This document shows, in pieces, positions 2,181 to 28,065 of a stretch of 64,000 bases of DNA. Position numbers and translations under genes: made by a program. Origin of the DNA: Polytrichum commune (lineage: Eukaryota > Streptophyta > Polytrichopsida > Polytrichales > Polytrichaceae); assembly GCA_950295325.1 (NCBI GenBank), contig OX485803.1, positions 76,213,554 through 76,277,553 of the forward strand, read 5' to 3'. Positions within the stretch are counted from its first letter, which is position 1. Each line of letters opens with the position of its first letter. The notes under the pieces are model-generated. The model worked only from the letters and a program-made list of their open reading frames with translations. It was not told the DNA's origin and made no database searches.

Positions 2181-2467
2181 TAATGTTGAAATAATATAAC
2201 CTCGATGTCAAAAGCAAATGAAGAACTTAAGTAACACTTAAAAAATAAGAAGGAAAAAAATCAAGAGCAAGTTAAGTTAAGTTAAGTTGAGAGGCAATGA
2301 AAGGCAAGATAAAAAAATTTAAAAAAAATCAAGAGATAATCTCGTCTTTTCTTGGGCTGCCCCAAAAATGCCAGGCGGCGCGGGAAAAAATGAGAGAAGC
2401 TAGAGGGGTCCCGGGAGCTTGTGCAAGAGAGGCTCATTAGGCACACGTAGAACAGGAGAGAGGTCAT

Positions 2468-5106
2468 GTGCCGCACACTAAAGAAGATGCAGAGGTTATC
2501 AAACTTTCAGACGATACCACGTTTGATATAGAGGGTCACCAAAACCAAGATTTAGGGGAGGATAATTCTTGGTTTGATCAGCTCCATACCCAACCCCAAT
2601 CCCTGCGCTCATCTGAGCTAAGGGTTGAACAAAATGACGATGCTCCACTTCATGCAAATATGGGTGATGAGGACGAAGAAGAATTAGCAGTACTTGATCA
2701 AATGGAGGAAGGACGTAGGGTAAGGTCATTAAACCTTAATCTACTGGAAAGAGGAGAAGAGGCGGTTCTAGGACATTTTGTGGACAAGGTGTTTAGTGAC
2801 CTTTACGATGAAGTTGAGGCTGAACCTGAAGGGCCAGTCGCAGAAGAAGGGCTAGCTGCTGAAGGTGAAGTGCTAGCAACAGACTGTGAACAACTAGCTG
2901 CAGAAGGCGAATAGCTAGCCAGACAAGGTTATCAGTTGGCCGCACAATGTTATAGGCTTGTTGTTGAAGGTGAATTGCTAGCAGCAGAAGCTAAATATTT
3001 TGCCGTACAAGGTGAACAGTTAGCCATACAAGGCTATCAGCTGGCCGTACAAGGCTATGAAATTGCCGCAGAAGGTGAACAACTGGCTGCACAGGGCTCC
3101 CGGCTAGCCACAGAAAGTATCCGGCTAGCCTCAGAAGCAAAAGGGCTAGCTGTAGAAAATTATGCACTAGTTAAAGATCTAATCGCAGACGAACAAGTGC
3201 CAGGTGAAGACTTAATTGCATAAGAACTTGTAGTAGGTGAAGACCTAATTGAACCAAAACTTGATCCGGTATTATAGTCAATTGTACCAGATGCTACACT
3301 TGTTGTAGACCTAATTGCAGAAGATTTTGCGCCGGGTTTAGAGCCAATAGTACAAGAACCTACTCTTGTACCAAAGCCAGTTGTACAAGAACATGAGCAT
3401 GTACCAGAGCCGATTGCTGAAGATACTCAACGACTTCCTAATTTTCGCCAACAACGCAATACGCTGCGATATGTATATCAGCCCTTAGTCCTTCATTCTT
3501 CCAGACCTTGTGACCATTTGCAATCCTTTCGCCCAACTATGGGTCAATTTGCAGATGGTAGGGAATTGGGAGAAATTAAGAATCCTCAACATATGGATAT
3601 CGATGCAGCTTGCTTCATGATGTTATCTTAAGATATGCCTTTGTTGTTGGGAGCCATAACACGGCCAGGCAATCGTAAAGTAAGGCTTAGAGATTTTGAA
3701 GGTTTTAGGGATTGGTTGCATATAATTTCAGATCCAATTGTCGTTAGGATCTTTGCTAGTGAAACAGACGTCGAGAAGGAGTTAACCAAGATTAAAATTC
3801 TAAAAGCCCTTAAAATTAGTTTTGGCATCACTTTGACTAAAAATTCAAATAGTTTCATATTGTCTAGAAATCAAGTGAATGTCTTTACCATTGTTATGGC
3901 AGAAGCTCTTTATATCAGAGGTATTAGGATATGTAGAGTAGGATTTTTTGGAATGAAGATGCCAATAGGTATAGCTGAACCCCTTATAGATAATTTGGTT
4001 TAGCGTTACTTAGAATCTTTGATTCCAAAATTAGATACTTGAGTTTTACATCATAAGAGTATATTTGATATTGTAATTGTCACTCCTACGGAGAGTATGG
4101 AGTTTTATTCATTTGACATTGATCAAAGGCACGTAAAAAAATATCGCGAGGAACAAATGCACAAGATATGCAACCAATCAAAATTCGGCTCTTTATCTTT
4201 CACGCCAACGAAATTTGGGGAGATCAGACAAATCAAGACCTATCAAAAATTGATTCACGTGGTGTTATCAGTCATCCCAAGAGATTATTTGGATGACATG
4301 CCAATAATCATGTATACATTTCATATTTGAGCTCTACAATTACGAGCGTTGTTGCAGATGTTAGAGCTAATGCAAATTATGACACGTAACATAGAAATTA
4401 AGAAAACTAGATTGGAAGTCACTGTGCAACATGTGAACACAGTGCAGGTTGCTCGTCACATGTGTAGCGAGTTAGATATCTCGCGTGTGCAAGGTGTAGA
4501 AAATATGCTAGAAGAAATTTTTGATAGAATACTTATAAGGGTCCAAATTTAATCCAAGCTTTTAAGGATAGCTTAGAAAAATTGGAAGCTGCAATGCGGG
4601 GTCTTGCGAATGTTGTTGTGCCTCCAATACGCATTCGTGCTGCGTTGACTTTGGCTCGGCACACGATTGGTTGGAGCGGAAAGAATATAAAACGTCAACT
4701 TTGACAAGCAAAGTCTTGGGAGGATAGAGAAATTAGAGTATGAATTAGGAGACAAGATGTTGACCACGTTTATGACGGTTACAAGTTAGATGATGCTGAA
4801 ATGCGTGCCAAAGTGGCTGAGTTTTTGGATCGTGCAAGGTGGTATCATCATCCAAGACTTCGTGATTAAAGTAGTGAAACATTGTTGTTAAGAAGAGATG
4901 ATGGTCGTGCATTTTGGCCAAAGCAAAATATTTACGATGATCGTATTGGAGCTACACGATATTTTATAGAAAAATGGGGCAAACTGGAAAATACATGTAT
5001 GGTGCCGACCAGAAACATCTTCATTATCTGGATCACCCTGATCCTCATCCTCTTCCGATTGATATACGGTTTAAGATTTAGGCGTTATTCTGTTGATATA
5101 ATTTAG
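2468..5106 (+). pseudogene. Long heptad-repeat protein pseudogene, unknown family
   Basis: One reading frame (2468 to about 4550) encodes protein-like sequence throughout but is cut by stops at 2912, 3221, about 3274, 3629, 4001, about 4040, 4328 and 4550. The frame then shifts by one and continues through 4882-5106 (for example IRAALTLARHTIGWSGKNIK, DDGRAFWPKQNIYDDRIGAT). Most of the stops are TAG, TAA or TGA where CAG, CAA or CGA would fit, so C-to-T decay of a methylated copy is likely. Order of parts: an acidic N-terminus, about 15 heptads (2838-3165), a degenerate 12-residue repeat rich in DLIAEE/VPEP (3166-3420), then a globular region (3480-4990) with no motif I recognise. The frame has no ATG at its left end; the first in-frame ATG is at 2660. 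It could derive from a mobile element or a lineage-specific gene. Confidence 0.6.
2838..3165 (+). repeat. 21-bp tandem repeat encoding a heptad (x-E/Q-G-E/Y-Q-L-A)
   Basis: About 15 imperfect 21-bp units encode heptads such as AAEGEQL, AVQGYQL, AVQGYEI and AAEGEQL. CTAGC recurs at the unit junctions. The spacing of Leu and Ala every seven residues predicts an amphipathic coiled coil. The stop at 2912 falls at the Q position of one heptad, so the original codon was very probably CAG. Confidence 0.85.
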
Positions 5107-5134
5107 GGTATAAAATATTTTTCTTTATTTTCTT

Positions 5135-5480
5135 TAAATATTAGTATTATATGGTTCAGGGTTTAGTAGAATATGGTAGATTCATTACTTGTATAAATTT
5201 TAAATATATTACAATACATTAAATAAGAATTAATATATATTTTGTATAAAGATCAGTCATTATTTGTAAGGCTCTGATGAAAATCGTATATTATATTTCT
5301 TATATAAATTCATAAATAGGGTAAAATAGATTTTTTTAAATGTTTTTATAGTCTATGAATATCAGTCATTATATGTAAGGGTTTGAACAAGATAATACAT
5401 TCATTGCTAATACAAATTTACGAATACTTTATAAAAGACTAACTAAGAAATTATCTTTATATCCTATGAATATCAATTAT
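5135..5480. repeat. Degenerate ~110-bp tandem repeat, three copies
   Basis: Units near 5140, 5251 and 5358 share TCAGTCATTAT-TGTAAGG, then ATTCATT-CT-ATA-AAATTTA. The spacing is about 107-112 bp. The block directly follows the pseudogene and is strongly AT-rich. Confidence 0.6.
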
Positions 5481-6963: not shown

Positions 6964-6971
6964 CTTTGTGG

Positions 6972-8282
6972 CTCGGGGGGGGCACTGGCGAAAAACGTAG
7001 GAACTACGTGCGATAAAATATAGGGTCTTGTATAAAAATTTGGCGTAAAATTTGTAAAATTATTAGATGTAGTATAGGGTGCTCTGGGATTGTGAAACAT
7101 GATTATATGTAATATAGCATTTGACAAAACATGATTAAATTACCTAAGTGGTACATATAAAATAGCATGGAGAAAAAACTATAGTTTCAAAAATTAAATA
7201 CTTTGCCACCAAAATATGGCATGTTCTATATAGGAAGGGTTCAAAAGATAAGGGTGAAGGTTGGTACTAAGTGGGGCAATTGTTGGCAACCCATTGACTT
7301 GACGAAACGTGCAGTCCATAACGGAAATAGAGAAACGCTCTTCCCAACTGCTATGGCTTACCTCCATTGGTTCAAAAAACAGCCGGGTCTCAACAAATAT
7401 AAGTATGTTGAGAGTGACTGTGTGTGGGTTGATGTGGATGCTATTATCTCCACTGTGTCTCTAGTGTATGAATCAACTAGCAAAATCTACACCTTAGATG
7501 AGGTAGATGCAAACTCATTGAGTGAGTTCATTTCAAATAAAAAATTAAACCTGCTAAATTTGTACTATCTCACACATGTGGAGATATAATTTGGAAAAAG
7601 GGTTGAATGATCATTAGTATACCTTGAAATCTGTAGTAGTCATTTCACTTCGAGTACCCTCATATCTCCCACATGTGTAAATGGTAGCCTAGCTAGTTTA
7701 GGTGGATTTTGCTTGCATGGTGTGGGATTTTCCTCCAATGTGTAGGATTGGAAGATCAAGGCATCAATTGTAGGGCTTCTGCAAACCTTGTAAATGTGAC
7801 TTTGAGACACATGTGGTTGGCCTGTTCCCTAAGACCTCAAGGTTTCTAACTGTGTTATCCAACACAACTTTTATTCGTTGGCTCGTGTTGCTTAATGACA
7901 TGTAATTGCAATCTTTTGTTGTTATTGTTTAGTGTTTTGCTTTGCCTGGACTTCAGTGTGACCCTGAACCCTAAACCCTAGTAAATGTTTGTTTCTCTTA
8001 CTCTGTACACGTGCTTCTAACGAGAATTCTACTGTATCATACACTTTAAGGAATGGGGGCAATCAGGGGGAAAAAATTACATATAAGTAATATAGGGTAC
8101 CATAAAATCAACCATCCAAGAATTTATAATTACCAATAGGGTGCAAATAATCACAACAATTTACCATTATTTCAAAAATTAGCATCCCTTATAATCCTTT
8201 CTCATAGGTAAATAGCCCCCATTTTAATAGGTCATTATCGCAGGTGTATGCAAAATATACAAGGGAGTGCCCCCCCCCCGAG
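6972..8282. mobile_element. G-run-ended DNA transposon carrying foreign DNA
   Basis: The element begins CTCGGGGGGGGCACT and ends in the inverted form (AGTGCCCCCCCCCCGAG). It is flanked by perfect 8-bp direct repeats CTTTGTGG (6964-6971 and 8283-8290), a target-site duplication. Subterminal TATAGGGT words recur at both ends. The left ~205 bp matches 10574-10780 (for example CGTAG-AAC-ACGTGC-ATAAA and TAAAATAGCATG). The middle, about 7190-8040, has no counterpart there and holds an open frame. An 8-bp duplication fits hAT-type or some Mutator-like elements; the termini match neither textbook consensus. No transposase is seen, so it is probably non-autonomous. Confidence 0.85.
7203..7589 (+). 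CDS. Unrecognised ORF inside the G-run transposon
   Basis: The frame is open for 129 codons including the stop, with the first ATG at 7221 (MFYIGRVQKIRVKVGTKWGN). The composition looks like real protein (Trp, Tyr, Val-rich, with VESDCVWVDVDAIIS) and not low complexity. No acceptor or donor is obvious. Since the closest related left end (10574) lacks this region, I infer that it was captured from a host gene. It is not a transposase I can recognise, and function is unknown. Confidence 0.45.
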   Translation: MPPKYGMFYIGRVQKIRVKVGTKWGNCWQPIDLTKRAVHNGNRETLFPTAMAYLHWFKKQPGLNKYKYVESDCVWVDVDAIISTVSLVYESTSKIYTLDEVDANSLSEFISNKKLNLLNLYYLTHVEI

Positions 8283-8545
8283 CTTTGTGGACCATCCTTT
8301 AAATATAACTAAAGACAACCATATAGGCTTTTGAAATTTGCAAGATTGCTTTATATAGCCCTTAGTCAACGACCCTAGACAAAAATCAACGGTGCTATAT
8401 CTTCCAAATTTAGATAGATTAGGAAAATGTTTTGCATATTTGAATTTCCCATACCTTAAAAATGCATATTTTAAATTAATGTAGTACCAAATTTAGTTTA
8501 TGAACCCTAATCCCATGCACCTTTACTAAATTTGAATTCATTACT

Positions 8546-10573: not shown

Positions 10574-10780
10574 CTCGGGGAGGTCGCTGGCAAAAATCGT
10601 AGAAACAACGTGCCATAAAAAAATAGGGTCTAATATATTCATTGTAGATAAATTTTGCAAAAAACATACATATGGTATAGGGGGTTTTTAAATAATGAAA
10701 TATGTTTACATGTAAAATATCATCACATATAAAATATCTAGTTTATCTAGTCAGTACATGTAAAATAGCATGAAAACAAT
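10574..10780 (+). mobile_element. Left-end fragment of the G-run transposon family
   Basis: CTCGGGGAGGTCGCTGGC at 10574 and the next ~200 bp match the left end of the 6972-8282 element, including ACGTGC, ATAGGGT and TAAAATAGCATG. No matching right end or 8-bp duplication was found, so this copy is truncated. Confidence 0.7.
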
Positions 10781-12979: not shown

Positions 12980-15900
12980 TTAAGGTGCCATTGCAAGTAC
13001 TTTGATTGTGCCTTGAGAGTTGGCCGCCAACATGGTTGGGCTATCACTCTTCCAACATACAGCACTAATGAAATGCGAGGTATCATCGTCACTATCTTCA
13101 GGGTTTTGAGACCCAAATCTATGCGAGGAAGCTGGTCTTGACATTGCCTGCCAAACAACAAGCACGTGCTTTAAAACTAACTGCACACAAACACAGCAAA
13201 ACATGGCAGATTAACTCCATCATGCTTGCAACCTACATATCCAGGAGAAATGCACGAGAGATTAAAGCGGGGATCTTGTCCAAAAATACAGTAAGCAGGG
13301 AAAGGATGTTGTTTAGTATCATCACCAGCCAAGGCCTTACCTTATGATACACAAAGACCTCATTTGTCTCACTGCCGCAAGCAATGTATTCACTATTCAC
13401 AGTCAAGCCCACGAAGTTCTTTTCATTTGTATGCCCTTTAAGGGTTCGTATCTGCAAAATAATACAGCAGTCAGTAGCACATATAGACTCTCCCACACTT
13501 CCCACACATGTTGCCAAGCACATTGCAATTTTGTGAAAAATCTTCAAGCACAACCTGCAATGGCTGTAAGAGAAACGACTTAGTTTGTAAAGATCCAAAG
13601 CAAGATCAATGGAATGAGAAGAGGTAAATCTCCCAAGGTGAGTACACTTAAGAAAATGAACATAAATTTCAAGAAAAGCAGATCTATTTCCAAATAGTTA
13701 CAAATAAGACTAAAAGTTAACTCAATACTGTTGATATCCTGGCTGACAACATTTCCACATATAGAAAGCACACAACAAAGTGCAAGCTACATAGGTTGTC
13801 GACAAACTGTGTCCCCATGCTTTCAAGGGGAGGCAAGTCACTAACTACAACAACATTAAAAGGAAGAGGACACATACAGAGCAATTTTTCCGCACGTCCC
13901 AAAGGCGCAATGTGCTATCAGTAGAAGCAGAAGCGAGCTCATTTGATGATAAAAACTTCACATAAGATACAGCTTTTTGGTGCCCCTTAAATACATATAG
14001 CGGAGCACTAGCATTCCGCAGATCGTAATAATGAATGTGATGGTCAGCTGAGCCAACCTGCAAAGTATTCCACCAAAGCAAAAGTTGATATTTAGTAGTT
14101 CAAGGGTATAACAAGCACATCGCACAATCATAGACTATGTTGTAACAGTTTCAACTCTTTGCCCATCCCATCCACAAAGATGAAATCTTGATAAAAGTGA
14201 CTTCCAGGATATAAATCTAAGCAATGCCTACTCTACTTCTCAACAAGATTTCAATATGGATCATGTATGCAGTTCAATTGCTAAGAACAAGTAAACAACA
14301 CTTACTGCAATGTGGTTACTGGAACCAGGATTATACTTCACACAACAGATGTTGGCTTTCATATCTATGTTAAGAGCACTAATTTCCTGCCTGGTACACC
14401 AAACTTTTACCTGCAAAACCTCCCAAGTGTATTCTCAGTCTCCAAGTTAGCTAGCAATTTATTAAGATAACATTATTCTAAGTGAGCAATTCAAGAGCAA
14501 GTAGAGAGCAGTTGTCAAATTATGGCAATTCTCAATACTTTCTCTGAGCACATTATAATTTTGATCCCACATGCAGCAAAAACGTAAAAGCAAGTCAAAA
14601 TGCAATTACAACAACAACCAGGGAACATGCCTTGCAATCGTCACTCCCAGAAACCAGCATTGATGGATCTGTGCGAGAAAAATCAACACTCCATGCACGC
14701 TTCTCATGCTCTTCATACTCCATAACACTCTGCAGTATAATACTAGGTGAGCTTGCAAATACAGACTCCAACAGAAACATCTGAAAATATTGAATTTATC
14801 AACTCGCAAATGAAGAACAATACACAAAAGTCCTTACAACAGCAGTCACTGTGGCTTTGTTCTCTGGTAAAAACCCGAACTTATTCACACCATCTAGTGG
14901 GTTACCTGCTTTGTGTTCACATCCCATACAGTGACAATGCCTTCATAATCGCTACTTGCAATAAGAGGTTTAATGCACTTATTCCAGCTAAGGCAGCTCA
15001 GCTTAGAGCGAGTTGGTATTTCCAGCACTGGGCAATGAACATTTGCCATCTCATTTACAACCTGTTAAGAAAAACCAATCAGATGTCAGACAAGCGTTTG
15101 GGAGGTTCATAAGGTCATTTACATGAAAAAAACTGTAGTGTAGTAGCAAATCTCTGTAGGAAAATGTATGACTTTACATAGCTCTACAGCTAATCTACAA
15201 TTGCATATTGATACAGATGTAGGTTATAATAATAACTGCAACAGGCCCACATAATCTACCAAGACTGGAAGATAAAAGTAAAGGTGCATATTCAGTTGAT
15301 CCCGAACGTACTGTGGCAAAATCAAAGATTTTGATGCGCCGTGAAACACCCGCCGTGGCAAACAGCTCATCATCCCGGTCAAACTCAATACTGCGGATAA
15401 AATGGAAAAGTCTGCACTTTCAGCGACAGCGATGCGGATATTCCACCAGAAACACCCACCCCCAGCAAACCATAAACAACCTCAAAAGGATAAATCGACA
15501 AAAAATGAATCTATTCTATGCTTCAAGTTCTTCTGTAGCAACAATAGCTATCATCATACTGAATTCTCCAATATTTCCCATGCACTTGAGTCACTTTCAC
15601 CCCAAAGCTCAGAACATCACAAACTGTTTCATAAAACTGGCCTGCAACACATATCCAGATGACAAACAAACTATGCCATAAATACAATCCAGATGCCATA
15701 CCTAGAAACTATGTTGGAAGTATGAAATAAGTCCCCGTGATGCACCTCAGCGATGACACGAAGGCGGCTGTCATTGATCATAATAAACAGAACAGAGAAT
15801 CATAAATCATCCTTGTCACGCACTGCAAGCAGACCAAGTGAAACTCATAATTTTCCACAAGAAAATAACCTAATTAAATCAAATGTCACATATCTGATAC

Positions 15901-18900
15901 ACACTAAAATCACATCAATACATATGAAATAATATAGAAATTCATTTGAAGAAAGACATACCTGTACCGAGTGAAAGCTGTGAGAACAGACTGGAAATCA
16001 TCTAGACCATCTTCGAGACTGTCTATAGCTCCACAAGCATCATGCTCAGATGCTGATTGCAACAGCTTTTGTTGTTGTGCAGCTGCAACTTGTCGCCTTC
16101 TCGTGAGGTAAGCTTCTTGCAAGTCTTCAAACTGCAATAAACATGAATCAACAGATTAGAGCTCTAATTACTGGAAACATCACATCCACGCTGACAGGCT
16201 CACACATCAACTTTGTTAAAGTATTGCAAGAATTGAAACCATTTCAAACCAAAATCTCCAGTCTGGAAACCATCGTATGATAATGTACTGTCTCAGGTAT
16301 GAGATCAAAACTCTCCAACAAATAAGAGAAAGGTCTTGATATTCGTATATAGATGATGTAGCAACGATATTGTGAGCTCCACAGGCATTAGGGATTTAGC
16401 AATCAACTGAACAACTGCATAATGCTGCAAGGGAAGAAGAACTATACCTGTTCCAGTACCTTGCTCTTCTTTACTTTTGTAAGCACCCCTGCAGATATAC
16501 CTTGCGAATCTGACAATGAATTTTCTAATGAGACATTGACTATTCCTAAATCATTGTTGCCTGAACTGAATGTCGAATTCCCAGTCTCAAGACGACCTAC
16601 GGAAAATGGTTGCTCACTGGGTGGAGTTGATGCACGTCCTTGCCCATCTTGCCATATAGCTACAGCGGCTCCATCACTTGCATCATCACGGCCTGGATGC
16701 GTATCTAGATCAGGAGCTGATGCACCTGTGAGGAGCCTAACTTTTTTGCACCGAATATCTTTTGCCCTTAACAGATCTTGTCGCCGTTTCTCAACTGTGG
16801 CAATGTCCTCTTTCAAGAATTGGAGATCATCCTCAATCTAATTTACAATCACGATAAGCAGAAGTCAATTTAGTCCAGGTAAGATGACTGTACAAGAAAC
16901 TAAACACTGCTGTTGACATCTGCACTTCATAGAGATATGTACATATTGCAATGCACCGCCTCAAACATAAACGCTAAATGCAAAATAATGGTGACCCTCC
17001 TATAAACAAAAGCCATGGAAAAAAACAAGCCCTTCAGTGGTATGTCTACATAGTTAAGATATAGAGTTGAACTACACAACAAGCTGAGAGGTAGTACCAC
17101 AACCCTGTGTGAATGGTGAATTCTCACCTCATGCAGTTCTTCTTGTTTCCTTTGTCTAGAGCGATGCAGAAATTCAAGTAATATCTCCATGTTAGACTCT
17201 GACTCCTCTTCTTCAAGCTTGCGCTTTTTTTCGCCCAAAAGAAGCAGTAAGGTATCTAGCTCCTTTGCTGGCAAATCAGCTCCCTTAAAAATCATGACAG
17301 CACTACCAAATCAGGACCTCATGAAATTAATATTCTCTCAATCACAAACATGAGGAAAATCATATGACTGTGAGCATGTCCTCCTCTTTTATAATCAGAC
17401 ATCTAATTTTCCTCATGAAAAGACATGTCTTGGTGTGCAAGAGAAACTCTAGACTCCCTAGCCCAAAATGATCCTCATCATTCAAAATATGGGCAGGAAT
17501 GGATAGTAATTAATGCCCCAGTGCCCACCACCAGAATAGGGTAATTAGTTACTGCGGGCCTTCTTCCTTCCATATTATGGACTTGTGGTCAGAAGCCAGC
17601 CATACTGACCCAAATTGCATATCACTGATAATACCAATTCAATAAAAAGTGAGAATCACCATCACTCAAACTTGGGTATGTTAACATTGAGGAGCTCCCG
17701 GCGTACATCCGAAATCCCAGGTGTCAAGATAGCACAGAAATGAATCTTTCAGTTCTCCTGATAGGAATCCCACTCCCAAAGAATTGTTGGCAGTTTAAAA
17801 TGAAGGAACGTAGGACTCAAAGGAGATATTATAGCAGACTATGTAGAATAGCTAGATCACAAGATTAAGCAACTGAGAAACAAAAGATGCAAGTTGGTAG
17901 GGCCAGTAGCATGTACAGGAAACATGCATATACCGCAATTAAGGCTCAGATGAAGAAATTACCTGCTGGAGAGCAATACGTAATTGCTCTGCCGGGGTTG
18001 CATTACTTAGTAACTGGGATGCTGATGCCTTCTTCATCAACTGCAACAATTTGCAACCACACATTCTGAAATGTGTCCCTAACCTCCACTTTCTTGAGCT
18101 CGTGAGTTAAATCAAAGTCCAAAAATGATCTATTGATGAAGTAATAGGTTAACATAAACTGATCAATCATGAGAAAAAATCTCACTAAGCCTTATATAGA
18201 TGATTAAAACAGTTAGATGTTTAGTATGTAGCCTACAGCATAACAAGCTGTCACATAAAGGTCACATAATCCTTTACTGAATATGACTTTTGGTTTGGAG
18301 TTAATTGTTTAGCATACAAGACCTTCCATGTTCGGTAAGTATCTGTTACATGCTTGGAGGTAGTGCGGGTGTTTGAATGAGAAACATTCTATATGGGCTC
18401 GTGGAGGGTCATACTCATTTTGGAGAGGTGCTAAAATGAGTTTGGCCCTCAATGAAATGAAATTTCTTGCTCTTCATTCAGCTATCCAAACACTATCTCC
18501 GAGCATGCACCACAAATGAGAAGAGATTATTGACATCATGTGCAGACCAACCAAAGGACAATCATAGGGGACCAAACTCCTGACGAAAACTCCCAGAGTT
18601 CAAGGAACCCTGTTGAGTTAGAGGATAACCCTGTTTGAGTTAAAGGGAAAAACTCTCTTGAATTGAAGGATAACTCTGTTGAGTTTGAGGATAACTATAA
18701 TTTTTTTTATATTATGCAACCAAAATGAAACTAACATGTCAAGGACGAGCTCACCTTGGTCAGCAGAATGTTGGGGATCAGTTGGTCATTCGTCAGGTAC
18801 CGGGCACAAGAAGGGCAGTTGTTCCGGTTGTTCAAATGAGTCATGATGCATGTGTAACAAAAACTGTGTCCACAAGAGGTGAGGAAAGCATCCTCCATCG

Positions 18901-19069
18901 TTTGAAAACAAATTGGACACAGAAAATCCTTGTCTACATTTGCCCTGGCGCGGACTGCAGATTCGTACTTGTCTTCGTCCGACGAAACCGAACCTGACCC
19001 ATGATGAGGCTCCTGTTTCACAAGTCCACCCATTGAGGGAACGTACGTCCCTCCTGATGACCCTTCCAT
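12980..19069 (-). CDS. COP1: COP1 E3 ubiquitin-protein ligase, 13 exons
   Basis: COP1 is the RING E3 ligase that, with SPA proteins and CUL4-DDB1, targets light-signalling factors such as HY5 for degradation in the nucleus. Exons (minus strand): 19069-18755, 18040-17963, 17283-17128, 16837-16448, 16131-15962, 15767-15702, 15390-15312, 15061-14906, 14729-14631, 14410-14306, 14057-13878, 13451-13341, 13147-12980. Together they give 2073 bp, 690 codons plus TAA, with every intron phase agreeing. A C3HC4 RING finger uses C51, C54, C66, H68, C71, C74, C85 and C88. A Glu/Lys-rich coiled coil spans about 140-215, and a variable linker encoded by exon 4 reaches about 313. A seven-bladed WD40 propeller covers about 370-690 (for example [14 protein letters not shown]). 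The ATG at 19069 is the first in-frame Met. Length is close to the 675 aa of Arabidopsis COP1, which also has 13 exons. The intron after exon 9 uses a GC donor. Identification is secure; transcript ends are not visible. Confidence 0.97.
14411..14630 (-). other. COP1 intron 9 with GC-AG splice sites
   Basis: Exon 9 ends TGCAAG (SGSDDCK) and the next bases are GCATGT, not GT. Exon 10 begins after TTTTGCAG with GTAAAAGTTTGG (VKVW). Only the AAG|GC junction keeps the conserved DDCK-VKVW segment in phase 0, and there is no nearby GT that would. GC-AG introns are a known minor class, usually with a strong AAG|GC context as here. It may splice less efficiently than the other twelve GT-AG introns of the gene. 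Confidence 0.85.
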
Positions 19070-20206
19070 TTTCCTTCCTCCTCTTCTTCTTCGCGCCAAC
19101 TCTCTCACCACTAAGGTAGATGGTGCTCAAACCAACACCCTAAAATCTTGCCGAGTAAGTACATGTTGATTTTGAGAATGTCCACCACCTTGACATCATC
19201 AGGCTCCCGAGTCCCGCGTTGATGCTTTTGGGTCTCTTACCAATAAAACTTTGAACGCTTATAAATTTCGCATACGAAATTCAAATAAGGCATACTTTGG
19301 TGCGTTGGAATCCCCTTTCAATTGCTTGCAAGAACAATTTTACTAATTTCATCCCTGCTTACCAAGTAGTGCAAGAGATCACTAGTCCTCCTCTTCCTCT
19401 TCCGCGGGGTCCATTTTCTTCCTTAGAATGCATTTACAAACAGACCGCGACGGTCAGGAAGGAAGTGGAAATTCTATGCATTTTTACAGCGTTTGAGAAA
19501 GAGAATTATGAACATTAGGAGGAACGTAGAGCGTCGGCGCCTATCATTGCAGTTGGTGATTCACCGAGTTTTTCACGAATGCTGCCCTTGTGATAATGAT
19601 CACCATATCCATAACCCAAACAAAATAATCTTCGATTCACCAGCCTAAGCAAGCTTCTCAGTTTACTTGCATAATATGCTGAAAGGTTAATTTCGAATCA
19701 GTATGTATACGCCCACTAAGGGCTCTTGGAACGCACTCATCCAATTTCTGCACCTCCACAGACCATTCTCGATGACATTATATTTCCAGCTCTTCAATCA
19801 GCTCCAAGTTCAAATACTTCACCACACCAGCTTCAAGAGTAGTAGCTTCTTGACAAATCCGGAACTCTCAAATTGACGGAAGTGCCGAACTCCAGAGTAG
19901 AGTAATCGTCAAATCTGATAAAGGTTTCCTAGTCCTCTCCATTCAGATGACGACACGTGTCAATGCACCAAATTCCTCAATTAAGCAACACACAACCACA
20001 CCTGTAATCAAAACTCCGAAGACTCCACCGAAAACACAACCGGAATTCGTCAACCGTCAGCTCCGCTCGCAGACTTCCAACAACACACGGAGATGAATGC
20101 GAGTATAAAATGTTGATGATGATGATGACGACGACTTTGCCATCAATCTCTCCGTTCAAAACAAAACCGCCACGAAGGCGACCCTACACTGAGCCTCCTA
20201 TCCTAC

Positions 20207-27141: not shown

Positions 27142-27149
27142 ACTTGGTA

Positions 27150-27495
27150 CTCGGGGGGGGGGGGGTAGTCATTGGTTGGAGTAGCAATATACGTGCGAAC
27201 AAATGATAGGGTATTTTAAAAACATGGGGGCAAAATTTTATAAATGGACTTAAGAGTAATATAGGGTATCAAAAATGACACTGGACATCTTTAAAGTACT
27301 ATAGGGTATGGAATAATAGGTAATTTGGAATTATAAGTAATGCAAGCCATTTTTCTATTAACCCAAAGTAGAAATTTACATAATGATAGCATGTGAAAAA
27401 AAAAAAAGAATTGAAAGTAATACCCCCCTATAAAATAGTGGTTGTTCGCACCTATATCCTTAACTTTTTAACACACTGCCCCCCCCCCCCCCGAG
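27150..27495. mobile_element. 346-bp MITE of the G-run family
   Basis: Starts CTC followed by 13 G and ends with 14 C followed by GAG. Perfect 8-bp flanks ACTTGGTA lie at 27142-27149 and 27496-27503. Inside both ends is ATATA-GTGCGAAC in inverted orientation, and ATAGGGTA recurs three times subterminally. There is no ORF. It shares the CTC-G-run ends, the ACGTGCGA word and the 8-bp duplication with 6972-8282. Confidence 0.9.
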
Positions 27496-28065
27496 ACTTG
27501 GTATTGAGAACTCATTCAAGAGGAACAAATATGTGTAAAAACATTCATAACATCTACTAAGTGAGAGGATGAACACATTGATCACCATGTAAAGCATGTG
27601 GAATACTATTTTTTAAATACCTTAACACCAAAATTAGGGCTAAGAAACCAAAGCAATGAACCTGATTTATTTTATTGAATAAACATACAATTAAAAACAT
27701 AATCATGTGGAATGAATGTGGAGCACTCTTGTTACGAAAATGTTGTATTAGTCACCTCTTTTGGTGACACTTGGAGCACTCTTCAATTCAAAGGTGACAT
27801 GTTATGTTTACACTCGCTTAGATGTTGACAAGGCAAGGATATCCATCACATGTATTATTTTCACATATTTGGTGCACTACATTGTTGTAGGGGTATGTAA
27901 TGTCACATACACATATACGTGAAGGATTACACCAAATTGTCTTCAACTCTAATATGTGCACCATGTTCAATTTTGGGTCATTAATTGGGGAGATACCATT
28001 AATATTTAGAAGTTAATTCCAAGTGGGAACTTGAGGGGAGGACTAACATGGGCGATTCATCCTTT

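Follow-up and report, generated by a model that had tools for sequence, protein, structure and literature searches.

Ac/Ds elements of the hAT superfamily leave an 8-bp duplication of the target site, and Ds moves in trans with Ac. Duplications of the same length are described for Zisupton elements in the passages of PMC12730594 cited here and for P elements in those of PMC7776569, which also report many internally deleted P copies; the Mutator duplication is 9 bp (PMC2774946, in part). The catalytic signatures given in the cited part of PMC8230255 are D230-73-D303-36-D339(2)H-192-E531 for Drosophila P and D304-70-D374-40-D414-199-E613 for THAP9. The cited passages of PMC7776569, a review, confine THAP to animals, so a THAP domain may define animal P elements only. 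For plants, a table in a 2022 review gives Tc1-Mariner, hAT, Sola, MuDR, PIF-Harbinger and CACTA as the superfamilies with terminal inverted repeats, P not being among those tabulated (PMC9033089), and the cited passages of a 2023 review mention P-element MITEs in angiosperms (PMC10004981).

The window, the whole stretch of 64,000 nucleotides that was analysed, lies at C1:76213554-76277553 of the Polytrichum commune assembly, and genome searches covered this assembly (407.8 Mb in 64 contigs, of which C1-C7 are chromosome-sized at 42-78 Mb). Positions 6972..8282 (plus strand, 1,311 bp) hold a complete transposon, bounded by CTC-G(n) and C(n)-GAG and flanked by an 8-bp duplication. The preliminary description had reported a CTC plus G8 left end, a C10-GAG right end and a perfect duplication, and the sequence from 6964 to 8290 reads as it said: GAA-CTTTGTGG-CTC(G8)CACTGGCG ... 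GGGAGTG(C10)GAG-CTTTGTGG-ACC. The two copies of CTTTGTGG occupy 6964..6971 and 8283..8290 (no strand assigned), the left terminal inverted repeat, CTC-G8-CACT, occupies 6972..6986 (plus), and the right repeat, AGTG-C10-GAG, occupies 8266..8282 (minus). A subterminal motif, which is a putative transposase-binding site, reads ACGTGCGA at 7006..7013 (plus) and ACCTGCGA at 8238..8245 (minus; TCGCAGGT on the plus strand). The interior contains an open reading frame at 7221..7589 (plus) that is homologous to residues 1386-1491, the C-terminal end, of the 1,497-residue transposase described below, and the segment 7208..8282 (plus), comprising the coding end, the 3' untranslated region and the right end, matches the 3' part of larger members of the group in collinear pieces.

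Searching the genome with this element returned 41 matches, of which 40 were nearly full-length (97-100% identity) and one was partial (74%); the best 40 of 1,308 candidates were scored, and the family size of at least 40 near-identical copies is therefore a lower bound. The genome-wide presence of same-ended copies with 8-bp flanking repeats, proposed in the preliminary description as a check on its reading, was borne out: the duplication was found in 40/40 copies (36 perfect, 4 with one mismatch) and the termini were CTC/GAG in 39 and CTC/AAG in 1, in a scan that scored ends and duplication jointly. For eight copies the ends were placed solely from the CTC-G/C-GAG pattern before the flanks were read, and the duplication then proved perfect in 7/8 and carried one mismatch in 1/8. 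Comparison of flanks identified L033, L037 and L040 as one insertion and L034 and L035 as another, so the 40 copies stem from no more than 37 independent insertions. Individual copies match the majority sequence of the family at 98.2-99.2%, so the burst of the 1.3-kb family is young. The insertion with duplication CTTAGGGA sits inside a larger multicopy repeat (L053, L054, L066, L033, L037, L040), three members of which, L053, L054 and L066, are ~99% alike across nearly all of the 10 kb fetched; this position inside the repeat indicates that those copies multiplied as passengers. Two other copies, L001 and L006, have the same 8-mer CTTTGTGG with differing flanks and in opposite orientation, which chance or target preference may explain.

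The open reading frame evolves neutrally in the short family. Synonymous changes make up 40/167 (0.24) of those observed vs 0.26 expected, divergence is 1.29% inside the frame vs 1.37% outside it, and the longest open frame is 120 codons in 25/40 copies and 134 in six, the window copy included. The frame corresponds to the last ~110 residues of the ~1,500-residue protein of elements of 8.1-8.4 kb, with 36% identity over 106 residues between the window copy and the C-terminus of the 1,497-residue protein. Collinear blocks in longer relatives span element positions 237-250 to 1249-1308. All three blocks were seen in one such relative, L055, where element positions 4-149, 237-557 and 1100-1306 correspond in order to 555-706, 4863-5183 and 7009-7215. 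Four more, L056, L063, L064 and L067, have the coding-end and right-end blocks in order, ~2 kb apart; the left end was not found in the fetched stretches of these four, so that 1/5 collinear relatives has one. The termini of L055 read CATGGGG and its flanks are mismatched at 2 of 8 bases. All five relatives are decayed, and L056 and L063 hold nearly all of a long, broken protein. Nested in L055 (1770-4525) is a 2,756-bp element with like ends, CTCGGGAGGGGACACT and GTGTCC..CGAG, flanked by a duplication with one mismatch (TGCTCAAC/TGCTCAGC) and containing a 232-residue frame with weak, below-cutoff similarity to 2OG-Fe(II) oxygenases (PF13640, E 0.032).

A 531-residue piece of L063 used as query gave 85 matches, several in open frames of ~1,500 residues. 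The longer, transposase-bearing copies that the preliminary description had suggested looking for were thus found, and one of them is at C6:6798300-6806614, an 8,315-bp element with G-run ends CCCGGGGGGAGCACT and AGTGCTCCCCCCGAG, a duplication with one mismatch (ACTAGTGT/ACTAGGGT) and a single unbroken frame of 1,497 residues. Three further full-length copies have perfect duplications: C4:26234830-26243270 (8,441 bp; CAGCCTTC), C1:43684618-43692968 (8,351 bp; CCTGGAAG) and C5:35459807-35467932 (8,126 bp; CCAACAGC). The 8-bp duplication is thereby present in 4/4 full-length copies with located ends, three perfect and one with a mismatch, and in 5/5 sites with both ends located when a 1,154-bp derivative at C6:19752331-19753484 (perfect duplication, CGAAGTTC) is included. 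The full-length elements have CYCGGGGGGARCACT inverted repeats at both termini. Among the four copies the frame is unbroken in that on C6 only, the C4, C1 and C5 copies carrying stops. A whole-protein search of the genome gave 32 matches (31 candidates scored), of which eight extend, uninterrupted by stops, over at least ~1,480 of the 1,497 residues; two of the eight may represent a single local duplication on C5. A ninth open frame has 1,506 residues, and the nine open frames in the genome range over 1,493-1,549 residues. The copies on C6, C4 and C1 are nearly the same in sequence, with 100% identity across 300 bp of the left end and 900 bp of the right; the presence of such full-length elements on three chromosomes, all with 8-bp duplications, suggests that they moved recently. 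A query made of 300 bp of the left end gave 25 matches, 15 of them starting exactly at the terminal base. These intact elements represent a more distant subfamily than the 1.3-kb family (36% over the common C-terminus). Near the right end of the C6, C1 and C4 elements lies a ~324-bp piece of 28S rRNA (L069:149-472 in the C6 copy; Rfam LSU_rRNA_eukarya). In other family members the sequence to either side of this piece matches and the piece itself does not, so the C6/C1/C4 subfamily appears to have taken up a fragment of rDNA. The full-length element also contains a second frame (L069:1123-1638, minus), 172 residues long and situated between the transposase and the right end, for which Pfam returned nothing at E<=0.01.

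The full-length elements encode their ~1,500-residue protein in one unspliced frame. It carries zinc-finger-like C-x2-C..H motifs in the direction of its N-terminus and also comprises a putative catalytic region of 654 residues (L069:3429-5390, minus) and a C-terminal domain that is conserved. Four aligned members (47-65% identical to the first) have the invariant strings AEDET, GHASDGD, LHDQDxxHNxKK and GSDxCExFF. A D..D..D(2)H..E string, D163-119-D282-47-D329(2)H332-195-E524, is invariant in 4/4 members, its residues having been assigned by eye rather than by alignment to a P protein, with D1 the least certain. The catalytic region gave pS of 0.78-0.86 and pN of 0.24-0.39 between members (6/6 pairs of the four); the transposase is constrained, unlike the open reading frame in the short family. 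Pfam contains a THAP model and a KDZ model, and the 1,497-residue protein gave no match in Pfam at E<=10 to any transposase model, including THAP, P-type, hAT, MULE and KDZ. Six partial family sequences likewise matched no Pfam transposase model, and the transposase gave no significant match to NCBIfam or to PDB sequences. A genome search with PF21787 (TNP-like_RNaseH_N) returned 0 matches, and 14 controls were equally silent. Scans of IMG/VR contigs and GTDB genomes for relatives, with two short peptide patterns each, produced 74 and 131 hits, of which tblastn confirmed none, and tblastn against phages gave no relative. A keyword search of open-access literature on P-type transposons in plants or mosses, with Repbase outside its coverage, returned no description of the element, and a similar open-access search on superfamilies with 8-bp duplications returned no description of the element.

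Long, 1.3-kb and 346-bp elements all have C-Y-C-G(n) ends. The 346-bp miniature element, at 27150..27495 of the window (no strand assigned; CTC-G13 ... C14-GAG), has the same subterminal motif as the 1.3-kb element and is best read as a second short non-autonomous family of the group. Its window copy is flanked by perfect copies of ACTTGGTA at 27142..27149 and 27496..27503 (no strand assigned), duplications having been read for this copy only, and the family numbers at least 40 copies at 97-100% identity (best 40 of 1,587 candidates). Each end of the full-length elements has an ACGTGCG motif ~35 bp in from the terminus. The pattern A[CG][CG]TG[CT][CG], which was chosen after the ends were inspected, occurs at position 34-43 in 9/12 ends listed, with one chosen end per family in the table; its background in the window is 0.054 per 100 bp per strand. 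It is missing in the other three ends, L056_R (ACGTGCAC), L064_R (ACATACGA) and L058b_L (ATGTGCAA). The occurrence of this ACGTGCG-like motif in long and short elements is consistent with a transposase-binding site. A further relative, at 10574..10772 (plus), is a diverged and apparently lone left end of the group with 70% identity over 199 bp. The preliminary description was right that this end is related to the left end at 6972; it had also made a point of the absence there of the ~850-bp middle. Neither a right-hand partner nor a mate for the duplication adjoining this end was found up to 15000, which makes it a lone or truncated left end whose missing middle says little.

The preliminary description had explained the open reading frame as a captured gene fragment. 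Host gene capture was rejected, as the frame has its homologue at the C-terminal end of the full-length elements' protein and the adjoining blocks are collinear with longer elements. The segment 7221-7589 is present in 40/40 copies, an outcome that had been named beforehand as contrary to capture. It could also be produced if one founder element had captured a host gene fragment and was then amplified with it, because capture before amplification would put the frame in every copy, and the window frame does lack a Pfam match. The suggested search for a donor gene led elsewhere, however: a protein search of the genome with the frame recovered mostly the 1.3-kb family, then diverged relatives at 66-70% with frames of up to 251 and 261 residues, and the homologues found (150 matches listed, the best of 1,036 candidates) are the C-terminal ends of transposase frames. 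Together with the collinear blocks beside the frame, this leaves capture by a founder with almost no credibility, and the 1.3-kb element is best read as a deletion derivative and not as a carrier of a host gene. It had also been suggested that G-quadruplexes, formed by the G runs at the ends, play a part in recognition by the transposase; this idea fared little better and we consider it very improbable. Long runs do occur in many copies of the 1.3-kb family (8-22 at the left and 7-21 at the right, a few of them interrupted by another base, with the left run of L032 unreadable), but the runs are short in the window copy (8 and 10) and in the full-length elements (6). The runs of the 346-bp copy are 13 and 14. 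Within the one insertion represented by L033, L037 and L040 the left runs are 17, 15 and 14 and the right runs 8, 21 and 12, so length changes after insertion in a manner that looks like homopolymer instability. Divergence and the length of the runs are not correlated (Spearman 0.07 and 0.08 over 35/40 copies; five did not parse). Slippage or homopolymer sequencing error explains the variation.

For the class of the transposase, the P superfamily (Drosophila P, THAP9/Pdre2) offers the closest comparison. The group and the P superfamily share the 8-bp target duplication, seen here in 40/40 short and 4/4 full-length copies, inverted repeats together with an internal transposase-binding site (putative here), many internally deleted copies with intact ends, and the order D..D..D(2)H..E with similar spacing after the second D, to the extent that P elements are covered in the cited passages. 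The present elements differ in having ~1,500 residues in one open frame, a length of 8.1-8.4 kb, a plant host, no THAP match, a longer D1-D2 spacing and G-run ends. On balance we think it somewhat probable that the transposase works like that of a P-type cut-and-paste element; we do not file it as a member, and membership of the P superfamily is unproven because no THAP or P model matches. A sizeable minority of our belief goes to a separate, undescribed DDE/D superfamily rather than a plant branch of P. The lack of any Pfam transposase match at E<=10, a D1-to-D2 spacing of 119 vs 73 in P and 70 in THAP9, and ends made of a ~15-bp G-run repeat rather than a 31-bp repeat all favour such a separation, whereas the order of the catalytic residues and the later spacings, 47/195 here vs 36/192 in Drosophila P and 40/199 in THAP9 (cited part of PMC8230255), argue against it, as do the 8-bp duplication and the many internally deleted copies that P elements also have in the passages cited (PMC7776569). 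The fuller proposal, of a distinct cut-and-paste superfamily with recent activity in a plant, is possible but doubtful; it would be marked by ends with G runs, duplications of 8 bp and a transposase of ~1,500 residues that lies beyond the Pfam and NCBIfam models, and would include several subfamilies and two high-copy short families. A hAT or Mutator-like element with aberrant ends is quite unlikely. In the cited passages hAT elements usually give 8-bp duplications (PMC12730594) and both hAT and MuDR are present in plants (PMC9033089), and the group resembles Ac/Ds in having short non-autonomous elements with the ends of a long transposase-coding element and the same duplication length; however, the intact protein matches no hAT model or other transposase model in Pfam at E<=10, no MULE domain match was found in Pfam, and the duplication is 8 bp in 40/40 copies, not the 9 bp of Mutator. 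KDZ/Zisupton elements are alike in their 8-bp duplication, as far as the cited passages describe them, and unlike in that no Pfam transposase model matches the protein here.

Taken with the homology of the open reading frame, the collinear blocks indicate that the 1.3-kb element is very probably a non-autonomous, internal-deletion derivative of a cut-and-paste DNA transposon in a plant, presumably mobilised in trans by a transposase of the full-length group. It has both ends and the collinear interior of a longer coding element and no intact transposase. We infer that the short element lost most of the coding sequence and kept both ends, and that the last ~110 codons and the 3' region were probably retained by accident. 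The candidate transposase of the full-length copies would bind the subterminal motifs, cut at the G-run ends and insert with an 8-bp staggered cut, and both the 1.3-kb and 346-bp elements may move in trans by this means, much as Ds does with Ac. An odd-looking repeat thereby becomes part of a transposon group in which long members are coding and short ones are not, and the unexpected outcome is an unclassified, apparently recently active long element, perhaps of a P-like lineage, in a plant. As the searched libraries do not annotate the transposase, genes of this kind might be taken for those of hypothetical proteins. If the kinship with P is true, a plant branch without a THAP match would be added to a superfamily best known from animals, and it would help in studies of end recognition by P-type transposases.

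Several other features of the window and its contig were observed. Open frames in series with stops between them, bearing a repeated QGYQLA-like motif, occupy 2441-4330 (plus), and the pieces of these frames tested against Pfam gave no match. Two DUF1442 matches in the window are below cutoff. A gene with RING plus WD40 matches in Pfam, which we take to be COP1-like, lies at ~13845-19126 (minus), separated by ~3 kb from the lone left end (10574) on its left. The CCCTAAA telomere repeat is usual in most plants, and contig C1 carries CCCTAAA/TTTAGGG repeats at both of its ends.
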